A DNA stretch of 64,000 bases from Balneolaceae bacterium (GTDB lineage: Bacteria > Bacteroidota > Rhodothermia > Balneolales > Balneolaceae), in the NCBI GenBank assembly GCA_017643365.1, contig JAEPNO010000002.1:1-64000 (forward strand). Reading direction: 5' to 3'. Positions 27,318 through 41,998 of the stretch are shown in pieces. The notes under the pieces were generated by a model. That model worked only from the letters and a program-made list of their open reading frames with translations, made no database searches and was not told the DNA's origin. The position numbers were made by a program, and so were the translations under genes. Each line of letters starts with the position of its first letter. The first letter of the stretch is position 1.

Positions 27318-27521
27318 TTGTCTGTTGATTGCTGATTTTAAAACATCTACTTACCGTTTGAGGTGTAAGTGATTGTCGCAGAAATTATAGTCACTCTTAA
27401 GTTTTCTGAAACCGCAATCCACTTATATTACAACACCCAAACATAAGTACGGCTTGCGCTTTTTTTGTTAACTCACTCATTTTATTTTGGATGCAGATAA
27501 TATCACATCCGATTTCTTACA

Positions 27522-29060
27522 ATGGCCAACCAACCAAACGATCATCTTTATCAATTAATAAAATCACTTACGAAGGCAGAAAAACGGTCGTTTAAGATTT
27601 ATGCCACGCGCACAAGTTCTTCGGATGCAAAGTTCATTCAACTTTTCGATGCAGTTGATAAGGCCAAAGAATATGACGAAGATATAATCTGCTCCAAAAT
27701 CAGCGATCTGAAAAAAGCACAGTTTTCGAATCTGAAAGCTCATCTTTATAAACAGATTCTCACCAGTCTTCGATTGAACTATGCTAATCACAACATCGAT
27801 ATTCAGCTTCGCGAGCAGATCGATTATGCCCGAATTTTATACGATAAAGGGCTCTACAAACAGAGCCTCAAAATTCTGGATAAAGCCAAATTGCTTTCGG
27901 CTCAAAACCATCGAATAACCCTAACTACCGAAATTCTGGGTTTTGAAAAACTCATCGAGTCGCAGTACATCACGCGTAGTTTGCGAAATCGAGCTGACGA
28001 ACTTATCGAACAAACCGAAGAATCAGTGAAATCGGTGGAGCGCTATCATGCTCTTTCGAATCTTTCGCTGCGTTTGTATGGCATCTACATTAAAGCGGGA
28101 CACGTGCGGAACGAGCGAGACTACGACATCACCAAAAAGTTCTTCGATAATGCGCTGAAGCAAATCGACCTAAACGACACCGATTTTTTTGATGAGTTGT
28201 ACTACAATGTATCTCATGCCTGGTACAGCCTGATTGTTCAGGACTTTTTGATGCAATATCGATATGCCCAGAAATGGGTAGAATTGTTTCATAATAACCG
28301 CGGAATGCTGGAATTGGAGCCCATCTGGTATTTGAAAGGCATGCACGTACTCCTTGAAGCGTTGTTTATTCTTGGTCATCCACAAAAGCATGATGAAGTA
28401 ATGCATCAGCTTGAGAAATTTGTAGAAAACCCACCTGTTCGAACCAACGAAAACCTAGAAACACTGGGATTTCAATATTACTATACCAGTAAAATTAACA
28501 GCTACTTCATGAATGGGCGATTCACCGATGGCCTTTCAATAGTTGCACAACTTGAAAAGAAGATCGAGAAATTTCAGCATAAAATTGATTCGCACCGCAT
28601 TCTCGTTTTCTACTATAAAATTGCCTGCTTGTTTTTTGGTGCCGGTAAATTTAAAACCTGCATCACTTACCTAAATAAAATCATCAATTATCCTGACCCG
28701 AGGCTTCGCGAAGACATACACTGCTTTGCCCGAATCTTAAGCCTGATTGCCCACTTTGAGCTTGGTAATCAAATCTTGGTAGAGTATCAGGTTCGAAGCA
28801 CCTATCGCTTTATCCGAAAAATGAACGACTTAAATTCGGTGCAGGAAGAAATTCTTAAGTTCTTACGTAATCTGAGTTCCGTTCAGCCCAATTATCTCAA
28901 AAAAGAATTCATAAAACTACGGGATCGCCTCCAACAAATTCAGGATCAGCCCTATCAGCGCAGAGCATTTTTATACTTGGACATCATAGGATGGCTGGAA
29001 TCTAAAATCGATGAAAAACCTATTCAAGACATCATAAAACAACGATTTCATCGCCGTTAG
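27522..29060 (+). CDS. conserved hypothetical helical-repeat (TPR-like) protein
   Basis: The 512-aa protein has no signal or membrane segment and is helical throughout. It begins LYQLIKSLTKAEKRSFKIYA, a start I associate with a conserved FCB family of unknown function. Paired helices such as ARILYDKGLYKQSLKILDKAKLL and ACLFFGAGKFKTCITYLNKI look like degenerate TPR units. It stands between leuA (divergent) and the ilv leader, with about 200 bases to leuA. Function unknown; a cytosolic scaffold is the most that can be said. Confidence 0.75.
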   Translation: MANQPNDHLYQLIKSLTKAEKRSFKIYATRTSSSDAKFIQLFDAVDKAKEYDEDIICSKISDLKKAQFSNLKAHLYKQILTSLRLNYANHNIDIQLREQIDYARILYDKGLYKQSLKILDKAKLLSAQNHRITLTTEILGFEKLIESQYITRSLRNRADELIEQTEESVKSVERYHALSNLSLRLYGIYIKAGHVRNERDYDITKKFFDNALKQIDLNDTDFFDELYYNVSHAWYSLIVQDFLMQYRYAQKWVELFHNNRGMLELEPIWYLKGMHVLLEALFILGHPQKHDEVMHQLEKFVENPPVRTNENLETLGFQYYYTSKINSYFMNGRFTDGLSIVAQLEKKIEKFQHKIDSHRILVFYYKIACLFFGAGKFKTCITYLNKIINYPDPRLREDIHCFARILSLIAHFELGNQILVEYQVRSTYRFIRKMNDLNSVQEEILKFLRNLSSVQPNYLKKEFIKLRDRLQQIQDQPYQRRAFLYLDIIGWLESKIDEKPIQDIIKQRFHRR

Positions 29061-29170
29061 CGAGTCTCTTTATCGTTTGGGCATCCCATTTTTTGGCAGA
29101 TTTACACGTCTTTTACGTTGCGATTTCGCGCGAATAGCTATTTCTTTGGCATCACATTAATCATCGAATC

Positions 29171-29248
29171 ATGAAAAACTCTGTCATTCCTGTGGTCATT
29201 ATTAACGTTATTGGTTACAAACACCGATCCGGGAATGCTATTTGTTAA
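29171..29248 (+). CDS. ilv leader peptide, Val/Ile-rich (attenuator control peptide)
   Basis: A 25-codon reading frame begins MKNSVIPVVIINVIG and ends in TAA (29246-29248), 66 bases before ilvD. Eight of the ten residues 5-14 are Val or Ile. The ilvD, ilvB, ilvN and ilvC products make exactly those amino acids, and a terminator stands between this frame and ilvD. The layout is that of leader peptides such as IlvL. Scarce charged Val/Ile tRNA would stall a ribosome at 29183-29212. No clear Shine-Dalgarno is seen. The call rests on composition and position; no expression evidence exists here. Confidence 0.8.
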   Translation: MKNSVIPVVIINVIGYKHRSGNAIC

Positions 29249-29278
29249 TGTTACGATTACTACAAAATGAGCCTTCCC
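29231..29278 (+). promoter_or_regulatory. candidate antiterminator stem of the ilv attenuator
   Basis: GGGAATGC (29231-29238) can pair with GCCTTCCC (29271-29278) with one mismatch. The second arm uses the 5' half of the terminator hairpin, so the two structures exclude each other. The first arm lies within the last codons of the leader peptide. A ribosome reaching the stop would mask it and allow termination; one stalled at the Val/Ile codons would leave it free. Confidence 0.6.
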
Positions 29279-29299
29279 TGAACGGAAGGCTTTTTTTTT
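29270..29299 (+). terminator. intrinsic terminator of the ilv attenuator
   Basis: Arms AGCCTTCC (29270-29277) and GGAAGGCT (29284-29291) are perfectly complementary around a six-base loop, followed by an unbroken T-run to 29299. It ends 15 bases before the ilvD ATG. It cannot be the simple end of the preceding gene, which stopped at 29060, because the leader frame lies between them. Confidence 0.85.
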
Positions 29300-29314
29300 G
29301 AACATGCATCATCT

Positions 29315-30994
29315 ATGGCGGAATTAAATAAGTACAGCAAACAAATTACTCAAGACGGCTCTCAACCGGCCGCACAGGCAATGCTTCATGCATTGGGTTT
29401 AAGTGATGAAGACCTGAATAAACCGTTGGTTGGCATTGCCAGTACAGGCTACGAAGGCAACCCATGTAACATGCACCTGAATGATTTAGCCGTGCATGTA
29501 AAACGTGGAGTTAACGCCGCTGATCAAACCGGGCTGATCTTTAACACCATTGGCATTAGTGATGGTATTTCGATGGGAACACCGGGGATGCGTTACTCCC
29601 TTCCATCGCGTGATATTATAGCCGATTCGATGGAATCGGTGGTAGAAGGAATGAGCTACGATGCAATGGTTGCCATTGTGGGTTGCGATAAAAATATGCC
29701 GGGTGCGTTGATGGCGATGCTTCGCGTAAACCGTCCAGCTATTTTAGTGTACGGCGGAACCATTGCTCCGGGTTATCACAATGGAGAAAAACTGGATGTT
29801 GTTTCGGCCTTTGAGGCTTGGGGACAAAAAGTTTCCGGCTCCATTAATGATCAAGAGTTCAAGGATATCGTGATGAATGCGTGTCCGGGTCCGGGCGCAT
29901 GTGGTGGAATGTACACCGCCAACACGATGGCTTCTGCTATCGAAGCGATGGGAATGACGCTCCCGTACAATGCTTCCAATCCTGCAAATGCATCAGAAAA
30001 AGTAATCGAATGTGAAGCGGTTGGAGCACACATGCTAACTTTGCTGGAAAAAGATCTCAAACCCAAAGACATCCTCACCAAAAAATCGCTGGAGAATGCT
30101 TTTCGATTAATTACGGTACTTGGTGGATCAACCAATGCGGTGCTTCATCTGCTGGCGATCGCAAAAACCGCGGGCATCGAATTTACGCTGAAGGACTTCC
30201 AAAAAATCAGCGACGAAACTCCCTTTTTAGGTGATTTAAAACCGAGTGGACGCTACGTAATGGAAGATTTACATAAAGTAGGTGGCATCCCTGCGGTAAT
30301 GAAATTTATGCTCGATAATGATATGCTACACGGTGATTGCATGTCGGTTACCGGAATGGCTATTGCCGAAAACCTGGAAAATGTTGACGCCTTACAGGTG
30401 GGACAAGATGTAATTCGGCCAACCGAGAATCCAATCAAAGAAAACGGGCATATTCAGATTCTGTACGGAAATCTAGCAAGCGAAGGCGCAGTGGCAAAAA
30501 TCACAGGAAAAGAAGGCGTTCGATTTAGTGGTCCGGCTCGAGTTTTTAACAGCGAAGAAGAAGCCAACGAAGGCATCCAAAACGGAAAAGTTCGTAAAGG
30601 CGAGGTAATAATTATCCGCTATGTAGGGCCAAAAGGTGGTCCGGGAATGCCCGAAATGCTGAAACCAACCTCCGCAATCATGGGTGCCGGACTTGGCAAG
30701 GAAGTTGCATTGATAACCGACGGTCGGTTCTCGGGCGGATCGCATGGCTTTGTAGTTGGTCATGTAACGCCCGAAGCTCAGGTTGGTGGAAACATTGCGC
30801 TGGTGCAAGATGGTGATCCTATCCGAATTGATGCCGAATCGAACGAAATTGAAATTGAAATTAGTGAAACAGAACTCGCAAAAAGGAAAGCAAACTGGAC
30901 AGCCCCGCCGCTTAAAGCAAAAAGTGGAACGTTGTACAAATACGCCAAAACCGTGAGTTCTGCCTCAGAAGGCTGCGTAACCGATGAGTTTTAA
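29315..30994 (+). CDS. ilvD: dihydroxy-acid dehydratase
   Basis: Iron-sulfur dehydratase shared by valine and isoleucine synthesis (559 aa). Conserved pieces include [13 protein letters not shown] and [13 protein letters not shown], whose cysteines ligate the cluster. [12 protein letters not shown] and the C-terminal [20 protein letters not shown] complete the family pattern. It is the first structural gene behind the attenuator and is followed by ilvB after 17 bases. Gene order ilvD-B-N-C. Confidence 0.96.
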
Positions 30995-31011: not shown

Positions 31012-32751
31012 ATGAGTACTATCGAAGCCCCAACAAAAACTGAAATGAATTCTACAACTGTTACCGAACGAGTTACCGGTGCAAATGCCGTCGTGCGAAT
31101 TTTGCTGGAAGAAGGTGTGGATCTCGTTTTTGGGTATCCGGGCGGGGCGATTATGCCGGTGTATGATTCTTTGTATGATTATCAGCAGCAAATTCATCAC
31201 GTGCTTGCTCGCCACGAACAAGGTGCTACCCATGCCGCCCAGGGATATGCCCGAGCTTCCGGAAAAGTGGGTGTTTGTCTGGCGACTTCCGGTCCGGGAG
31301 CCACGAATTTAATAACAGGTTTGGCCGATGCCCAAATCGACTCGACTCCTATGGTTTGCATCACCGGACAAGTTCCTTCCGGTTTACTCGGTTCAGATGC
31401 TTTCCAAGAAACGGACGTGATTGGTATTTCGATGCCGGTTACCAAATGGAATACGCAAGTAACTCGTGCCGAAGAAATCCCCGAAGCACTTGCTAAAGCA
31501 TTTTATATCGCGAAATCAGGTCGCCCCGGTCCTGTTTTAGTCGATATCACCAAAGATGCACAGTTTCAGGAATTTGATTTTAGCTACACAAAATGCACCG
31601 GGCTTCGGAGCTATGTGCCTGTGCCAAAGTTAGATCCGACAAAGGTGGAACAAGCCGCTGAGTTGATCAATAATGCGGAACGACCCTTTATTCTCTTTGG
31701 GCAAGGCGTGATTTTAGGAAATGCCGAGGCTGAGTTTAAAACCTTCATCGAAAAAACAGGAATTCCTTCTGCCTGGACTATTATGGGACTTTCAGCCTTG
31801 GAAACAGATCATCCATTGAATGTGGGTATGCTGGGGATGCATGGCAATTACGGTCCGAATTTGTTAACCAACGAATGCGATGTCTTGATTGCCATCGGGA
31901 TGCGCTTCGATGATCGGGTGACTGGAAATCTTTCGAAATATGCAAAGCAGGCCAAAGTAATTCATCTTGAAATCGACCCGGCTGAAATCGACAAAAACGT
32001 GAAAACCGACGTTGCTGTTTTGGGCGATTGCAAAGAATCGCTAACGGCGTTAATCGAAAAAGTGAAACCAAACTCGCACAAAGAGTGGCTGCAGCGATTT
32101 AGAGATTGCGACGCCATGGAACACGAGAAAGTCATTCAGGGTGAGCTGCATCCAACCGATGAGAAACTATCGATGGGCGAAGTGATTCGTATCATCAACG
32201 AGAAAACCAACGGCGATGCAATTTTGGTTACCGATGTGGGTCAACACCAGATGGTGGCTTGCCGATACACCAAATTCAACCAATCGAAAAGCAATATCAC
32301 CAGTGGAGGATTAGGAACCATGGGCTTTGGATTACCGGCCGGTTTAGGTGCCGCACTTGGTGCACCAGACCGAACAGTAGTTGCGGTAATTGGTGATGGC
32401 GGACTTCAGATGACGATTCAGGAATTTGCCACCATTTATCAAACCCGAGCAAACGTAAAAGTGCTACTTCTTAATAATGAGTTTTTGGGGATGGTGCGCC
32501 AGTGGCAACAGCTGTTTTTCGACAAACGATACAGCGCAACCGAGATGATCAATCCCGATTTCCAGACCATCGCAAAAGGCTATTACATCCCCACCAATAA
32601 AGTAACCGAACGCGAAAAATTAGACGATGCCATTACAGAGTTCATCAACCATGATGGCGCTTACTTTTTGGAAGTGATGGTAGGCAAAGAAAACAACGTA
32701 TTTCCGATGGTGCCCAGCGGTTGCGGAGTTGCAGAAATCAGACTGGAGTGA
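31012..32751 (+). CDS. ilvB: acetolactate synthase large subunit
   Basis: Thiamine-diphosphate enzyme that forms acetolactate or acetohydroxybutyrate from pyruvate (579 aa). VDLVFGYPGGAIMPVYD holds the N-terminal substrate channel, and the catalytic Glu is in LARHEQGATHAAQGYARA. The ThDP/Mg motif is GDGGLQMTIQEFATIYQTRANVKVLLLNN, quoted here only by its ends GDGGLQ and LLLNN. The first 24 residues are a polar extension before the domain. It is followed by a 153-base spacer with a repeat before ilvN. Confidence 0.95.
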   Translation: MSTIEAPTKTEMNSTTVTERVTGANAVVRILLEEGVDLVFGYPGGAIMPVYDSLYDYQQQIHHVLARHEQGATHAAQGYARASGKVGVCLATSGPGATNLITGLADAQIDSTPMVCITGQVPSGLLGSDAFQETDVIGISMPVTKWNTQVTRAEEIPEALAKAFYIAKSGRPGPVLVDITKDAQFQEFDFSYTKCTGLRSYVPVPKLDPTKVEQAAELINNAERPFILFGQGVILGNAEAEFKTFIEKTGIPSAWTIMGLSALETDHPLNVGMLGMHGNYGPNLLTNECDVLIAIGMRFDDRVTGNLSKYAKQAKVIHLEIDPAEIDKNVKTDVAVLGDCKESLTALIEKVKPNSHKEWLQRFRDCDAMEHEKVIQGELHPTDEKLSMGEVIRIINEKTNGDAILVTDVGQHQMVACRYTKFNQSKSNITSGGLGTMGFGLPAGLGAALGAPDRTVVAVIGDGGLQMTIQEFATIYQTRANVKVLLLNNEFLGMVRQWQQLFFDKRYSATEMINPDFQTIAKGYYIPTNKVTEREKLDDAITEFINHDGAYFLEVMVGKENNVFPMVPSGCGVAEIRLE

Positions 32752-32904: not shown

Positions 32905-33453
32905 ATGGAAAAACGAGAATTTACCATCACCGCTTACACCGAAAACACGGTTGGCTTACTGCATCGAATTACGATTATTTTCACCAAGCGGAAAATCAAT
33001 ATCGAAAGCATCACAGCATCCGAAAGTGAAATGGAAAACATTTACCGTTTCACCATTGCGGTTACCGAAACCGAAGAATTGGTGGGCAAAGTGGTGAAGC
33101 AGATCGAGAAATTAGTGGAGGTGCACAAAGCGGCTTACTTCAAAAAAGATGAAGTGGTACAGCAAGAATTGGCACTGTACAAACTAGCTACCGAATCGCT
33201 CACTAATGGGCTGAAAGTAGAGCGGATCGTCAGAGAACATTCAGCTCGGTTTTTAACCATCGAAAAGAATTTTGTGGTGATCGAAAAAGCCGGATATCGC
33301 CGGGAAGCCTTCGCTCTTTTTGAAGAACTGAAGCCTTTTGGAATCAAAGAATTTGTGTTATCCGGACGTGTAGCCGTATCCCGTGCAGAACGTGGAATCG
33401 GCGCTGAAGTCCGTGAATTACTACAATCCGAAACTATGGAACACACCCCTTAA
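32905..33453 (+). CDS. ilvN: acetolactate synthase small (regulatory) subunit
   Basis: Regulatory partner of IlvB (182 aa). An ACT domain fills about residues 4-78: FTITAYTENTVGLLHRITIIFTKR is its start, quoted by ends FTITAYTEN and IIFTKR. The C-terminal ALS small-subunit domain follows. Such subunits confer valine feedback and raise activity (family knowledge). The last residues MEHTP run directly into another palindrome at 33454-33471. Confidence 0.93.
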   Translation: MEKREFTITAYTENTVGLLHRITIIFTKRKINIESITASESEMENIYRFTIAVTETEELVGKVVKQIEKLVEVHKAAYFKKDEVVQQELALYKLATESLTNGLKVERIVREHSARFLTIEKNFVVIEKAGYRREAFALFEELKPFGIKEFVLSGRVAVSRAERGIGAEVRELLQSETMEHTP

Positions 33454-33572: not shown

Positions 33573-34619
33573 ATGGCAATTTTAAACTTTGGCGGGGTCG
33601 AAGAAGTAGTCGTAACCCGTGAGGAATTCCCACTAAAACGAGCACAAAAAACCCTGGCGGAGGAAACCATCGCAGTGATTGGTTACGGAGTTCAAGGACC
33701 CGGACAGGCATTAAACCTTCGCGATAACGGCTTTAACGTAATTGTGGGACAGCGCAAAGAATCAAAAACCTGGGATAAAGCTGTGGCCGATGGCTGGGTG
33801 CCCGGCGAAACGTTGTTCGAAATCGAAGAAGCGTGCGAGCGTGGAACCATTATTCAGTATTTGCTTTCCGATGCGGGTCAAATCACCCTTTGGCCAACGG
33901 TTAAAAAACACCTAACCGCAGGCAAAGCACTCTACTTTTCGCACGGATTCGGCATCACTTACAAAGACCGAACAGGGATTATCCCTCCCGATGATGTAGA
34001 TGTAATTCTAGTAGCTCCAAAAGGCTCAGGAACTTCCCTCCGGCGTATGTTTTTGGAAGGTCGCGGTTTGAATTCAAGCTTTGCTATTTTCCAGGATGCC
34101 ACCGGAAACGCACTAGATCGTGTGGTTGCTTTAGGGATTGGAGTTGGTTCAGGATACTTGTTTGAAACTGATTTCAGACGTGAAGTGTACTCCGATTTAA
34201 CCGGCGAGCGAGGCACGTTGATGGGTGCCATCCAAGGTATTTTTGCAGCACAATACGAAGTGCTTCGTGCTAACGGACATACTCCATCCGAAGCCTTTAA
34301 CGAAACCGTGGAAGAACTCACACAATCGTTGATGCCACTTGTTGCCGAAAACGGTATGGATTGGATGTACGCCAATTGCTCAACTACTGCACAACGTGGT
34401 GCCTTGGATTGGTGGAAGAAATTTCGCGATGCCAGCAAGCCGGTATTCGAAGAATTATACAGCGAAGTAGCTGCCGGAAACGAAGCCCAGCGTTCTATCG
34501 ATTCCAATTCTCAAGACGATTACCGCGAAAAGCTAGAGAAAGAACTCGAGGAATTACGCGAATCTGAGATGTGGCAAGCCGGACAAACAGTACGCACGCT
34601 GCGACCGGAGAACGGTTGA
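33573..34619 (+). CDS. ilvC: ketol-acid reductoisomerase
   Basis: NADPH-dependent isomeroreductase, second common step of valine and isoleucine synthesis (348 aa). The Rossmann loop GYGVQGPGQALNLRDNG is close to residues 37-53. The C-terminal knotted domain has metal and substrate residues in DLTGERGTLMGAIQG and ETVEELTQSLMP. Length and the GPGQ loop match the Bacteroidetes form rather than the 330-aa or 490-aa classes. It ends the ilv operon; palindromic repeats begin directly behind it. Confidence 0.95.
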   Translation: MAILNFGGVEEVVVTREEFPLKRAQKTLAEETIAVIGYGVQGPGQALNLRDNGFNVIVGQRKESKTWDKAVADGWVPGETLFEIEEACERGTIIQYLLSDAGQITLWPTVKKHLTAGKALYFSHGFGITYKDRTGIIPPDDVDVILVAPKGSGTSLRRMFLEGRGLNSSFAIFQDATGNALDRVVALGIGVGSGYLFETDFRREVYSDLTGERGTLMGAIQGIFAAQYEVLRANGHTPSEAFNETVEELTQSLMPLVAENGMDWMYANCSTTAQRGALDWWKKFRDASKPVFEELYSEVAAGNEAQRSIDSNSQDDYREKLEKELEELRESEMWQAGQTVRTLRPENG

Positions 34620-34863: not shown

Positions 34864-35868
34864 TTATAAGAACCCCCAAAACTTAGCGCAAGCGTCCGCT
34901 TGTGCCACCTTTTTTTGTCCAAGCGGACGCTTGAACAAGAGTAGAGCATTTGCTGATGTACCTGAAAAATCATTGCTATAATTTGTATTGCCAACTGGTG
35001 GATTTAAGTGTTCAAATTTACCCCAACAGTCAGTGGTATTAACATTTAGATTACCAGGGTTATAACCACTTTGACCAGAAAGATCCAGTGTCCAAATGTC
35101 TCCTCGCATTTTCAATCCTTGTAAACCCGCGTTAACGCTATTTACCCCATCATAACAAGGATGATCTTCAAGAATATTTTCTCCAATTTCACCATTTGGA
35201 CCTACAATTCTTAGTTTAGAACCAAAATTGCTATAATGCCATCGATTTAAAGATTGATCAACTGCACCCACAGCGTACATAGCTGGAAAACTTGCCGGTT
35301 GCGTTACTTCTTTATTCTTATTCCCTGCTGCAGCAATATGTATAATATCTGAATATTCAACTTGGTTGAGAAAACTATTCTGATATTGCGTAAGACTTCC
35401 ATCATTTGTCCAACTATGATTAAATAGTATACTTCCATCTTCTGCAGCATCAATTGATAAATTTTTTAATGTCGCATCATTTGTTGGTCCAAATATACTC
35501 CAAGTCGCAATTCCTACTATACTTACGTTAGGTGCTATACCAGCAATTCCTTTATTATTATGATCAGCAAACATTATTCCGCCCACTGCCATACCATGAG
35601 CTCTATTATCAAAAGCTGAGCCTCCATAAGTTTGAACAATTTTGGAACTACTTATATCTTCGTGATTAGTTTCAATTGGTTCATCAGTTATTGTAACTAT
35701 TACACTAGGATCTCCTTTTGTTATTTCCCACGCATCGATTACATTAATCATCTCAAGATAATATTGGTTTGTAAAATATGGATCTTGAACAACTTGAGCG
35801 CTTATACCAGTACTTATTGTTGAAGCGAGGCTAAAAATTAATCCTGCGACTATTGTTTTTTTATTCAT
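34864..35868 (-). CDS. subtilisin-like (S8) serine protease with repeat-encoded C-terminus
   Basis: The 334-aa exported protein (signal peptide to about residue 25, ISA-Q) has the subtilase core. The catalytic Asp is in VTITDEPIE, His in RAHGMAVGG, the oxyanion Asn in AAAGNKNKE, and Ser in FSGTSANA near 302. A normal S8 domain continues well beyond the GTS motif. Here the reading after SANA enters a palindromic repeat (34885-34945) and spells LLLFKRPLGQKK... to the stop. The enzyme is probably truncated or inactive. It overlaps the propeller lipoprotein gene by four bases (ATGA). Confidence 0.8.
   Translation of the reverse strand: MNKKTIVAGLIFSLASTISTGISAQVVQDPYFTNQYYLEMINVIDAWEITKGDPSVIVTITDEPIETNHEDISSSKIVQTYGGSAFDNRAHGMAVGGIMFADHNNKGIAGIAPNVSIVGIATWSIFGPTNDATLKNLSIDAAEDGSILFNHSWTNDGSLTQYQNSFLNQVEYSDIIHIAAAGNKNKEVTQPASFPAMYAVGAVDQSLNRWHYSNFGSKLRIVGPNGEIGENILEDHPCYDGVNSVNAGLQGLKMRGDIWTLDLSGQSGYNPGNLNVNTTDCWGKFEHLNPPVGNTNYSNDFSGTSANALLLFKRPLGQKKVAQADACAKFWGFL
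34885..34945. repeat. double-palindrome repeat (CAAGCG family), copy inside the subtilase gene
   Basis: Two palindromes, CAAGCG-tc-CGCTTG (34889-34902) and CAAGCG-ga-CGCTTG (34920-34933), are separated by TGCCACCTTTTTTTGTC. A second full copy lies at about 37284-37346. Single-palindrome copies lie at 37141-37180 and 39024-39063. The family has the look of a non-autonomous hairpin element. Confidence 0.85.
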
Positions 35869-36962
35869 TTTTCCCCTTGTTTAGTTGATATATAAATTCT
35901 ATCAATGTTTGTTAGTGTAAATTCATTTGTAAAGTCGTATTGAGCTTCAATTTTTCTCTCCTTTAGATCAATTATTACTAACTCAATGTCTCTTTTATTC
36001 AGAACAGCATATCTTTCTTTAGGTGTCAGAAAAATACTTCCAGTAATACCCCCCACATTTATTGTATCTATAATACTATCGCTTTGTAAAGAGTATATAT
36101 TTACGTTTTGAATTTCAGGGCGATTATAGATTCCTAAATCACCATTATCTGTGATATAAACCTCTTTATTATCACTTCTTACAGCTGCATGTCCCCATTT
36201 AAAGACTTTGGTATCACCAACAATTTCTTCTCTCACTGTATCATAAACAGGCCCTCCAACAAAAAACATATACCTACCATTAGGTGATAGAGTAAAATTT
36301 GGATGATTAGATACACTCTTTCCACCTATTAAGGCCCTACTTTGTTGTGATTCAAAATTATACTCAATTAATTGAATTTCATTACTAATGAGATATGCTA
36401 TTGGCAGATTTGGATGAATTTGAATTGCTTTATAGTCATGAAAATTTGCGGCTGCCATTTTTATAGATCCAAGTTCTGAAACCTTACCATCTTCAACATT
36501 GATTTTCCCTAAAATTCTTTCCGGTAAAAAATCAGCAAATCTTCCGGTATCTAATTTTGCTTTAGTTACAAAATAAATATCCTTTCTACTTGAGTGAATA
36601 AACTCAACCGGACGATCGTATATAACAGTACTTTCCCAATTATTCGTATTTACTTCATAAATATTACCATTCTCAACAGTAAGATTTTCGTCACCTGTTG
36701 AGACATACAATATCGATCCATTGGCATTTGATGTTATTGAATAAATTGATTCAAAATCATTTTTAATTTCATATTCGCCATGCGAAGGATCTATAATGTA
36801 TAAGTAATCAGATACATAGCTGTGTGCATAGATTACATAATCATTAATGTCCTCCTCTTCCCACACAATGGGTTTTTCTTTGTCATCGCCCCCCAAAATT
36901 CCGCAGTTTCCCAATCCAATTATTACAAATACTGGTAAGCAGTAAAGTAGAACCCTGATCAT
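35865..36962 (-). CDS. beta-propeller-like lipoprotein, copy A
   Basis: The 365-aa product starts with a lipoprotein signal whose likely lipobox is GLGNC (Cys20), followed by GILGGDDKEKP. The mature part has repeated strand blocks with YLYIIDP, ILYVSTG, YMFFVGG, EVYITDNGDLGIY and LTPKERYAVLN, the pattern of YVTN-type propellers. It is paralogous to the gene at 37711-38844. The first 38 or so residues are nearly identical between the two, while the rest is only distantly alike. It is the first gene of a pair with the subtilase. Role unknown; surface binding is a guess. Confidence 0.75.
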   Translation of the reverse strand: MIRVLLYCLPVFVIIGLGNCGILGGDDKEKPIVWEEEDINDYVIYAHSYVSDYLYIIDPSHGEYEIKNDFESIYSITSNANGSILYVSTGDENLTVENGNIYEVNTNNWESTVIYDRPVEFIHSSRKDIYFVTKAKLDTGRFADFLPERILGKINVEDGKVSELGSIKMAAANFHDYKAIQIHPNLPIAYLISNEIQLIEYNFESQQSRALIGGKSVSNHPNFTLSPNGRYMFFVGGPVYDTVREEIVGDTKVFKWGHAAVRSDNKEVYITDNGDLGIYNRPEIQNVNIYSLQSDSIIDTINVGGITGSIFLTPKERYAVLNKRDIELVIIDLKERKIEAQYDFTNEFTLTNIDRIYISTKQGEK

Positions 36963-37379
36963 TTATTTAACCCAATTAATTATTAAAAGATTAAATACTC
37001 ATTTTTTTTTTTAGGCGCAAGTCTAGATTGTGAGTTATTTAAAGGTAAGATACTGAGTCATTTTTTCGTCAATAAATCTTACTCTAAAACAGGCTTCTAA
37101 TCGATTGGACGTTTCACTTACAAAGCATAAGCATCAGCTGGCGTCTTCTTTTTTGTCCAAGCGAACGCTTGAACAAGATTAGGAATGACTTTACTTAATT
37201 ACTTGAACAAGATGAGGTAATGGCCGATCCTATATATCAGTCATCCCGGACCTGATCCGGAACTTCAATAATCATAAAACCCTAGCGCAAGCGTCCGCTT
37301 GTGCCATCTTCTTTTTGTCCAAGCGAACGCTTGAACAAGAGTAGATGAGAATGACTTTACTTAGTTATATGAACAAAAA
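36963..37379. repeat. duplicated upstream block with hairpin repeats (copy A)
   Basis: From about 36861 to 37240 this stretch, with the 5' end of the lipoprotein gene, is repeated almost base for base at about 38743-39123, offset 1,882-1,883. It includes the T-rich run near 37001-37012, GGCGCAAGTCTAGATTGTGA and a CAAGCG palindrome. Beyond it come a GTCATCCCGGACCTGATCCGG repeat near 37240 and a full double-palindrome element at 37284-37346. No gene is seen. The promoter for copy A must lie in the block. Confidence 0.8.
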
Positions 37380-37401
37380 AAGCCTCCAATTTTGGAGGCT
37401 T
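37380..37401. terminator. bidirectional intrinsic terminator
   Basis: AAGCCTCCAA and TTGGAGGCTT form a ten-base stem with A-tracts on one side and T-tracts on the other, so it can work in both directions. It stands between the repeat block and the small plus-strand gene at 37465. It could stop minus-strand read-through from copy B. Confidence 0.75.
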
Positions 37402-37464
37402 TTTTGTAACAAATTTCTGTTAATACAGTATCTATACTTTAAAGTATTATTAACAGGAGGTAGT

Positions 37465-37710
37465 ATGAGTTTCGTATCGTCGCAGGAAAGAACCAATCGT
37501 GCAAATTTAAGCTTACTTCGTGGAAATACCTTCTTCCGTGAAATTTCAAATCCACGTGCAAAACGAATTGCTTCAAAACTAGATGGAGTTAACCTAAAGA
37601 GAAAAGCAATTATCCTTGCACGAAGAAAGTTAAATCCTCGCCTTCGTTTGGCGTTTGTGTTGAGTTTGATTTACCTAATCTTTGCCCTTGCATTCGCGAT
37701 CCTAGTTTAA
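37465..37710 (+). CDS. small membrane protein, 81 aa
   Basis: The ATG at 37465 follows an excellent Shine-Dalgarno sequence (AGGAGG, 37455-37460), so the longer frame starting at 37345 is rejected. The product is basic (about residues 10-60: RTNRANLSLLRG, AKRIASKL, ILARRKLNPRLR). It ends in one membrane helix of about 20 residues (LAFVLSLIYLIFALAFAILV) at the extreme C-terminus, a tail-anchor layout. No family recognised. It ends at the base before the convergent lipoprotein copy B stop. Confidence 0.7.
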   Translation: MSFVSSQERTNRANLSLLRGNTFFREISNPRAKRIASKLDGVNLKRKAIILARRKLNPRLRLAFVLSLIYLIFALAFAILV

Positions 37711-38844
37711 TTATTGAGATGACTCTAAATAAATGTCTTCATTATCATCCCCTTTTGTGATTGGTTGTTTAAACAGATAGAATTTTTCAAAATTTGATAC
37801 CTCCTTACTTAGCTCAATCGTCTTCACTAACTCTCTGGTTTTCAAATCTACTATAAAGATATTTCTACGATTATGAGTTATTAGATATCTCTCCTTTGGC
37901 GTTAAATACATTCTAAAATTCACTGACCCAACGTCAATCGAGTCTATTATTGAATTTTCTTTTAGATTGAATACCGTCATTTTAGGTTGAATATCAGCAG
38001 CCCCTGTATATGTGGGTGGATCCGAAATGTATATTTCTCTTTTATCTTTTCTTGCAATCAAGTGACTAGGTCGTTCAGAGGTTATAGAACCAATTTGTTT
38101 GCTGCTAGTTAAGTCTAAAACAGGTCCTTTGGCAAAAAATAACGTATTTCCATCTTTTGATAATTCGAATCCACCATGATCCCAGTAATTAAACTGCTGA
38201 AAAATTAATTCTGACTGCTCAGTATTAATTCTATATCTAAACAATCTAAAATCTGCATCATACCCAAATAATTCTTGTTTCAAATCATTTACCTCAAAGG
38301 CCGAATCGTCACTCATTCCAAATACAAAAATATCAATATCATCGATAATCTTTACATCACCAGTTGATGGTTCTATTCGCCCGAATGTTCTGGTATGAGA
38401 TACTTCATTATTATTACCGGAATCATCATACCCTAAATGGTTGTGTTTGGTGATAAAATAGATTTGTTCATCTGAAGTTTCTAATTCTACCGATCGATCA
38501 TATATTTTTTCACTACTCCAGTTTTCCGTATCAATCTTTGTTATATACCCAGGATCTCCCCCATATTTTCCATTTCCAGTTGATATATATAGATATTTAC
38601 CATCAGTTGATGCTGCAATAGATTGAATTCGATCTAATCCACGAATATTAGTAACACTACTATTTCCTAAGTTTACAATGTGTGCTATCGTATCACTTGC
38701 GGTAAACCCATAAACAACCAGCCCCTCCAAACTCTCCTCTTCCCACACAATGGGTTTTTCTTTGTCATCTCCCCCTAAAATTCTGCAGTTAACGAACCCA
38801 ATTATTACAAATAACGCTAAGCAGTATAGTAGAACCCTGATCAT
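37711..38844 (-). CDS. beta-propeller-like lipoprotein, copy B
   Basis: Paralogue of the gene at 35865-36962 (377 aa). The lipoprotein signal and first residues (MIRVLLYCLALFVII, GGDDKEKPIVWEEE) match copy A nearly perfectly. The propeller body has diverged and shares only pieces such as IYDRSVEL and LTPKERYLITHNRR. No protease gene follows this copy; the downstream neighbour is a convergent small membrane gene. Exported lipoprotein of unknown function. Confidence 0.75.
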   Translation of the reverse strand: MIRVLLYCLALFVIIGFVNCRILGGDDKEKPIVWEEESLEGLVVYGFTASDTIAHIVNLGNSSVTNIRGLDRIQSIAASTDGKYLYISTGNGKYGGDPGYITKIDTENWSSEKIYDRSVELETSDEQIYFITKHNHLGYDDSGNNNEVSHTRTFGRIEPSTGDVKIIDDIDIFVFGMSDDSAFEVNDLKQELFGYDADFRLFRYRINTEQSELIFQQFNYWDHGGFELSKDGNTLFFAKGPVLDLTSSKQIGSITSERPSHLIARKDKREIYISDPPTYTGAADIQPKMTVFNLKENSIIDSIDVGSVNFRMYLTPKERYLITHNRRNIFIVDLKTRELVKTIELSKEVSNFEKFYLFKQPITKGDDNEDIYLESSQ

Positions 38845-41799: not shown

Positions 41800-41824
41800 T
41801 TATTTTTTTGTGAAATGACGATTT

Positions 41825-41998
41825 TCAATCTTTTGATCCACATCCCCAGGAATCAAAATCTAAATGGTCTAACTCTCCATTCTCGATTAATACACCTAAC
41901 ACTACTCCCAAAGCGATCCAAATTGCCAGCCCACCGAAAGTAATCCCCATCAATACACCCATTCCAATTCCAATAGCTATGCCGGTTCCTTTTTCCAT
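41825..41998 (-). CDS. small glycine-zipper membrane protein, 57 aa (paralogue)
   Basis: The frame begins MEKGTGIAIGIGMGVLMG, continues through IWIALGVVLGVLIE, and ends in an acidic tail with SWGCGSKD. Length and core (GI..G, W-x-ALG-x-x-LG) match the protein at 39322-39495. A good Shine-Dalgarno sequence (AGGAGA read on the minus strand, about 42005-42010) precedes the ATG. Likely a single-span or hairpin membrane peptide; function unknown. Confidence 0.75.
   Translation of the reverse strand: MEKGTGIAIGIGMGVLMGITFGGLAIWIALGVVLGVLIENGELDHLDFDSWGCGSKD

Follow-up and report, generated by a model that had tools for sequence, protein, structure and literature searches.

A Val/Ile-rich leader frame and four RNA segments predict ribosome-mediated attenuation of ilvDBNC in Balneolaceae

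Introduction

Branched-chain amino acid synthesis in Escherichia coli and Salmonella is controlled by the leaders ilvL (before ilvGMEDA) and ivbL (before ilvBN). Each encodes a peptide rich in the end products of its operon, and the leader RNA forms 1:2, 2:3 and 3:4 helices, with a terminator before the branched-chain genes. Attenuation of this type requires a ribosome close behind RNA polymerase. Lopatovskaya et al. reportedly surveyed attenuation comparatively in 2010, and their survey might already list ilv cases from Bacteroidetes.

The ilvBNC operon of Corynebacterium glutamicum has a leader-peptide attenuator that is backed by mutational analysis (PMC11857589). According to a survey published in 2010, Proteobacteria and Actinobacteria were at that time the only groups with known leader-peptide systems, to which the survey added Firmicutes (PMC2965389). 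Tandem attenuators are found in Salmonella mgtCBR, where two leader frames sense ATP and proline (PMC3641672). Bacteroid-trp RNA (RF01692) is a separate Rfam family which its authors judged to be cis-regulatory (PMC2864571). An earlier note on the locus studied here considered such attenuators to be less described in the FCB group. Little has indeed been described, but the field is not blank: a 2021 transcriptome study of Flavobacterium psychrophilum reported strong signs that leader peptides attenuate amino-acid operons there, and the elements that its available part names as conserved are those of pheA and hisG, not ilv (PMC9723704). Our literature search, which left most subscription journals outside, gave no direct match for ilvD attenuation in Bacteroidetes, and neither ilv attenuators of Balneolota nor serial Val/Ile units were the subject of any paper that it covered.

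Anatomy of the ilvDBNC leader

The stretch of Balneolaceae DNA that was analysed, here called the window, is 64,000 nucleotides long. The features of the leader and its operon, with the evidence for each in brackets, are as follows.

29118–29148, plus strand: putative Bacteroidota-type promoter, TTG (29118–29120), 20 nt spacer, TTTCTTTG (29141–29148) (conserved position in relatives)
29171–29248, plus strand: leader peptide gene encoding MKNSVIPVVIINVIGYKHRSGNAIC, with control codons 5–14 (frame scan, conservation, synonymous excess)
29185–29197, plus strand: segment 1, CATTCCTG-U-GGTC, within control codons 5–9, pairing with segment 2 (RNAalifold consensus, synonymous null, folds)
29226–29239, plus strand: segment 2, GATCCGGGAATGCT, in leader codons 19–23, pairing with segment 1 (off) or segment 3 (on) (shuffle and synonymous nulls, folds)
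29270–29278, plus strand: segment 3, AGCCTTCCC (nearly invariant across 27 relatives)
29284–29299, plus strand: segment 4, GGAAGGCT and T-run, forming an intrinsic terminator with segment 3 (folds, stem ranking)
29315–30994, plus strand: ilvD, dihydroxy-acid dehydratase (Pfam ILVD_EDD_N and C)
31012–32751, plus strand: ilvB, acetolactate synthase large subunit (Pfam TPP enzyme domains, position in the operon)
32905–33453, plus strand: ilvN, acetolactate synthase small subunit (Pfam ALS_ss_C, ACT)
33573–34619, plus strand: ilvC, ketol-acid reductoisomerase (Pfam KARI_N, KARI_C)

The leader frame runs from an ATG at 29171 to a TAA at 29246–29248 and has 25 codons. Codons 5–14 read V I P V V I I N V I, so that eight of ten are Val or Ile (four of each). 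Markov shuffles of the region produce a frame with eight of ten at a rate of about 5e-5. On both strands of the 64 kb window there is no second frame of 10–45 codons with at least seven Val/Ile in ten. A window scan for other amino-acid-rich leaders before strong terminators found none besides the ilvD leader and a trivial frame with two Trp codons near 41800–41934, and no Leu-rich leader is visible before the divergent leuA operon (27318–27521, minus strand).

The promoter-like TTG-N20-TTTCTTTG sits 22 nt 5' of the leader ATG and resembles the Bacteroides/Flavobacterium consensus. From its position, transcription is expected to start near 29153, and the leader RNA is therefore predicted to be about 145 nt long. 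An element like TTTCTTTG lies 18–23 nt 5' of the leader start in most of the 27 relatives described below, in many of them with TTG about 20 nt further upstream.

Segment 1 pairs with 29226–29237 through 12 bp with one bulge, which gives a protector hairpin reaching into the control codons. The antiterminator is formed by 29231–29239 with 29270–29278; within it GGGAATGC (29231–29238) pairs with GCCTTCCC (29271–29278) with one U x C mismatch. The 5' arm of the antiterminator is at the end of the leader, and its pairing is exclusive with that of the terminator. The latter (29270–29299) consists of AGCCTTCC (29270–29277) paired with GGAAGGCT (29284–29291) and a T-run at 29291–29299, and lies between the leader and the first structural gene. 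The 3:4 hairpin has a free energy of about -14.5 kcal/mol and ranks first among the stems in 24–40 kb of the window. A search of the organism's own genome with the terminator pattern returned the ilvD leader site only.

These results confirm the 25-codon frame, its eight Val/Ile codons within ten and the mutually exclusive stems directly before ilvD, all at the positions given by the earlier note. Its model of an antiterminator set against a terminator was correct for both stems and incomplete in that it missed segment 1. The note was also right to place the locus in an FCB bacterium. The evidence supports a complete four-segment attenuator, in which 1:2 and 3:4 would make up the off state and 2:3 the on state.

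Elsewhere in the window, the neighbouring minus-strand genes at 35865–36962 and 37711–38844 (MIRVLLYCLPVFVIIGLGNC... and MIRVLLYCLALFVIIGFVNC...) are similar and are apparently a duplication of a lipoprotein-like gene. An identical intergenic hairpin, GCGCAAGCGTCCGCTTGTGC, occurs at 34886–34905 and 37285–37304 and is possibly a dispersed repeat.

Folds in fixed ribosome states

Equilibrium folds were calculated for truncated RNA with an assumed ribosome edge, and these folds describe states, not kinetics. With no ribosome the fold is 1:2 plus 3:4 (-33.8 kcal/mol). With the ribosome held in codons 5–14 and the polymerase before segment 4, the fold is 2:3. When segment 4 is added, a ribosome stalled at codon 9, 11 or 14 still leaves 2:3 as the minimum free energy structure. 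With the stall at codon 5 or 8 the equilibrium fold then favours 3:4, so switching at these codons would depend on the order of folding. With the ribosome at the stop codon only 3:4 remains, which agrees with the proposal that a ribosome there masks the antiterminator arm in the last leader codons.

Conservation among close relatives

The close-relative set comprises the 27 Balneolaceae whose IlvD shares at least 76% identity with that of the window (genera g1, g4, g5, g6, g13, g17 and g18). The Val/Ile frame, the antiterminator arm and the terminator are kept in all 27, so there is no case in this set of a terminator conserved without its leader frame. Example leaders are MLSTVISLVIIRVIGITYRPGKALC and MITPIIITVIIQVIGVQYRPGK, and one genus uses a TTG start, giving (M)IQQRDIIVIIIEVIVQKR. 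In some relatives (L096, L100) the best ten leader codons contain just six Val/Ile. Indels in the leader body are multiples of three, and the sole 1-nt gap falls in the last codons, where it shifts the stop. Counted over pairs of relatives, which are not independent, 50% of the single-base codon differences in codons 5–15 are synonymous, where 27% would be expected.

This pattern bears on whether the leader, instead of being translated, might bind a protein or act as a riboswitch for a metabolite or a tRNA (a T-box, for example). In favour of this, the leader is structured, with alternative stems before an amino-acid operon. The conserved part here is nevertheless a reading frame with a synonymous excess and indels of three, and an Rfam search of the window gave no family at gathering score, including Leu_leader (RF00512), Thr_leader (RF00506), Phe_leader (RF01859) and Bacteroid-trp (RF01692). 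Because there is no Rfam match and the conserved part is coding, we regard a riboswitch or protein-binding leader as extremely improbable. In ten loci a permissive Rfam search gave only sub-threshold matches in relatives, to Thr_leader, Phe_leader and Leu_leader.

Pairing was compared with two kinds of null. The antiterminator is stronger than in dinucleotide shuffles (p<=0.05) in 37 of 56 units, with p 0.007 in the window. When leaders were recoded with synonymous codons, the 1:2 stem stood out at p<=0.05 in 22 of the 27 Balneolaceae (window p 0.033) and the 2:3 stem in 13 of 27 (window p 0.047). Synonymous codon choice thus favours the 1:2 stem in 22 of these 27 genomes. In the TTG-start genus and most other families the antiterminator arm is mainly 3' of the stop, and the synonymous null therefore says little there.

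From the alignment alone RNAalifold proposes the 1:2 stem and the terminator, and L088 carries a compensatory C-G to U-A change between segments 3 and 4 in the terminator stem. The alignment of relatives suggested by the earlier note thus bore out the conserved Val/Ile codons and one compensatory change; covariation was weak overall, that of the 1:2 hairpin included. Column shuffles of the close relatives match the observed covariation score in 22 and 29 of 500 cases. Covariation is modest because three overlapping helices and the reading frame constrain the same bases and there is little variation, and for lack of variation we dropped it as the main proof.

A covariance model built from 20 relatives was run on 77 genomes of the family. 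It gave 27 strong matches (E<1e-4), all of them immediately 5' of ilvD; the others had E values of about 1e-3 to 1e-2 and were weak. No strong match came from near-complete genomes of the same genera that lack ilvD. One of the weak matches, a second one in the window (37373–37473, minus strand), was rejected as a chance match to the attenuator model; it is an ordinary strong terminator, AAAAAGCCTCCAAAATTGGAGGCTTTTTTT.

Position relative to neighbouring genes

The gene at 27522–29060 encodes a 512-aa protein without a Pfam match, and a homologue with 46–49% identity is also found upstream of ilvD in three Lutibacter genomes. The gene lies on the same strand as the hairpin, 210 nt away, and directly upstream of the ilv leader in 27/27 close Balneolaceae. 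For this reason the best rival explanation is that the hairpin terminates this upstream gene, the short frame being incidental and the ilvD promoter lying after the terminator. Several relatives would have room for such a promoter, with over 100 nt between the T-run and ilvD, compared with 15 nt in the window. This explanation leaves the conserved Val/Ile frame, the antiterminator arm and the synonymous-site 1:2 pairing unaccounted for, and a promoter-like element already precedes the leader. The upstream gene is moreover absent from most loci of other families with the unit, being present in four of 26 (L034, L035, L040 and L020, the last on the opposite strand). We therefore consider a terminator of the upstream gene very unlikely.

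The same distance bears on a further alternative, that the leader acts on translation or on Rho termination, with stalling exposing or hiding the ilvD start or a rut site and the hairpin being secondary. The short gap in the window and the mostly SD-independent translation of Bacteroidota would be in its favour. Every relative, however, retains the long T-run and strong stem, and the target of the antiterminator arm is the terminator and not the ilvD start. The terminator is conserved over T-run to ilvD distances that range between about 15 and well over 100 nt, which leaves no fixed geometry for such variants, and we attach very little probability to them.

Proposed mechanism

We conclude that the ilvDBNC leader is, with high probability, a ribosome-mediated transcription attenuator. 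The earlier note had reached the same reading, which now has behind it conservation in 27/27 relatives, the shuffle and synonymous nulls and the fixed-ribosome folds. Transcription would begin at the predicted start near 29153. If no ribosome is loaded, 1:2 and 3:4 would pair and RNA polymerase would halt at the T-run near 29299. When charged Val-tRNA and Ile-tRNA are plentiful, a ribosome translating the leader would reach the stop at 29246 and cover segment 2, so that 3:4 would terminate transcription. When charged Val- or Ile-tRNA is scarce, the ribosome would stall in codons 5–14 and cover segment 1. Segment 4 would not yet have been transcribed at that point, so that the freed segment 2 could pair with segment 3 (GGGAA.GCU with AGC.UUCCC); with 2:3 formed the polymerase would read on into ilvDBNC. 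Very probably, then, transcription of ilvDBNC continues only when charged Val or Ile tRNA is scarce, a starvation response that we infer from this arrangement.

Wider distribution and history of IlvD

Many Flavobacteriaceae and some Saprospiraceae share this layout before ilvD, often with stems unrelated in sequence, as do an Elizabethkingia and an Ignavibacteria MAG. Over all loci, which are not independent, the unit is present in 65 of 177 and on the reverse strand in 0 of 177. A phylum-wide sample of 60 more loci contained it in 10 of the 22 that belong to family f27, with none of the 60 positive on the reverse strand. The f27 leaders match those of named Flavobacterium and other Flavobacteriaceae. 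Four loci (L022, L023, L030, L035) have two complete Val/Ile leader and terminator units serially before one ilvD, and in L023, L030 and L035 a second start codon is closely 3' of the first T-run.

Balneolaceae with a distant IlvD (about 62–65% identity) lack the leader unit in the regions examined. Five such loci (L104, L106, L109, L115, L117) share a palindrome-like AAAGCGCTTCCA before ilvD, which is possibly a repressor site. Presence or absence of the unit follows the IlvD tree. IlvD trees split the Balneolaceae into two groups, and the AU test does not reject a single clade (p 0.09). With this p value we do not claim ilv gene transfer between the clade of the window and Flavobacteriaceae; transfer between phyla may have taken place.

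Val/Ile leader attenuators are probably a widespread and fast-evolving form of ilv control across Bacteroidota, Balneolota and Ignavibacteria, kept by design and not by sequence, with two units for the same amino acids placed serially in some genomes. Attenuators kept in this way would be invisible to Rfam.

Comparison with known systems

This work provides comparative-genomic evidence and a full four-segment model for ribosome-coupled attenuation of branched-chain synthesis in Balneolaceae and many Flavobacteriaceae, and adds annotation for a class of small genes and leader RNAs absent from current libraries. Since the ribosome must follow closely behind the polymerase, these leaders offer a direct test of transcription-translation coupling in a phylum whose promoters are unusual and which rarely uses Shine-Dalgarno sequences.

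The earlier note had likened the locus to the logic of ilvL and ivbL. By mechanism the attenuator of the window is of the same kind, and every defining feature that could be tested was found. The E. coli and Salmonella leaders and that of the window have in common an end-product-rich leader, predicted here from a frame whose Val/Ile codons are kept in 27/27 relatives, three helices and a terminator before branched-chain amino-acid genes. The leader of the window differs in having no Leu codons and no Rfam match to the enterobacterial leader families. It also has a very short 5' UTR and a putative Bacteroidota-type promoter element, its antiterminator arm is in the last leader codons, and the operon that it would control is ilvDBNC.

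The C. glutamicum attenuator is likewise placed before ilv genes, in another phylum and with another operon start. The F. psychrophilum candidates and Bacteroid-trp belong to the same phylum in the wide sense and are short-peptide or structured leaders before amino-acid operons; Bacteroid-trp is a family apart from the attenuator of the window. The tandem of mgtCBR and the paired units before ilvD are both serial, but the mgtCBR units sense different signals whereas both ilvD units are Val/Ile-rich, and the window itself has one unit. The mechanism is thus a known one; less expected are how widely it is distributed and that units occur in series.
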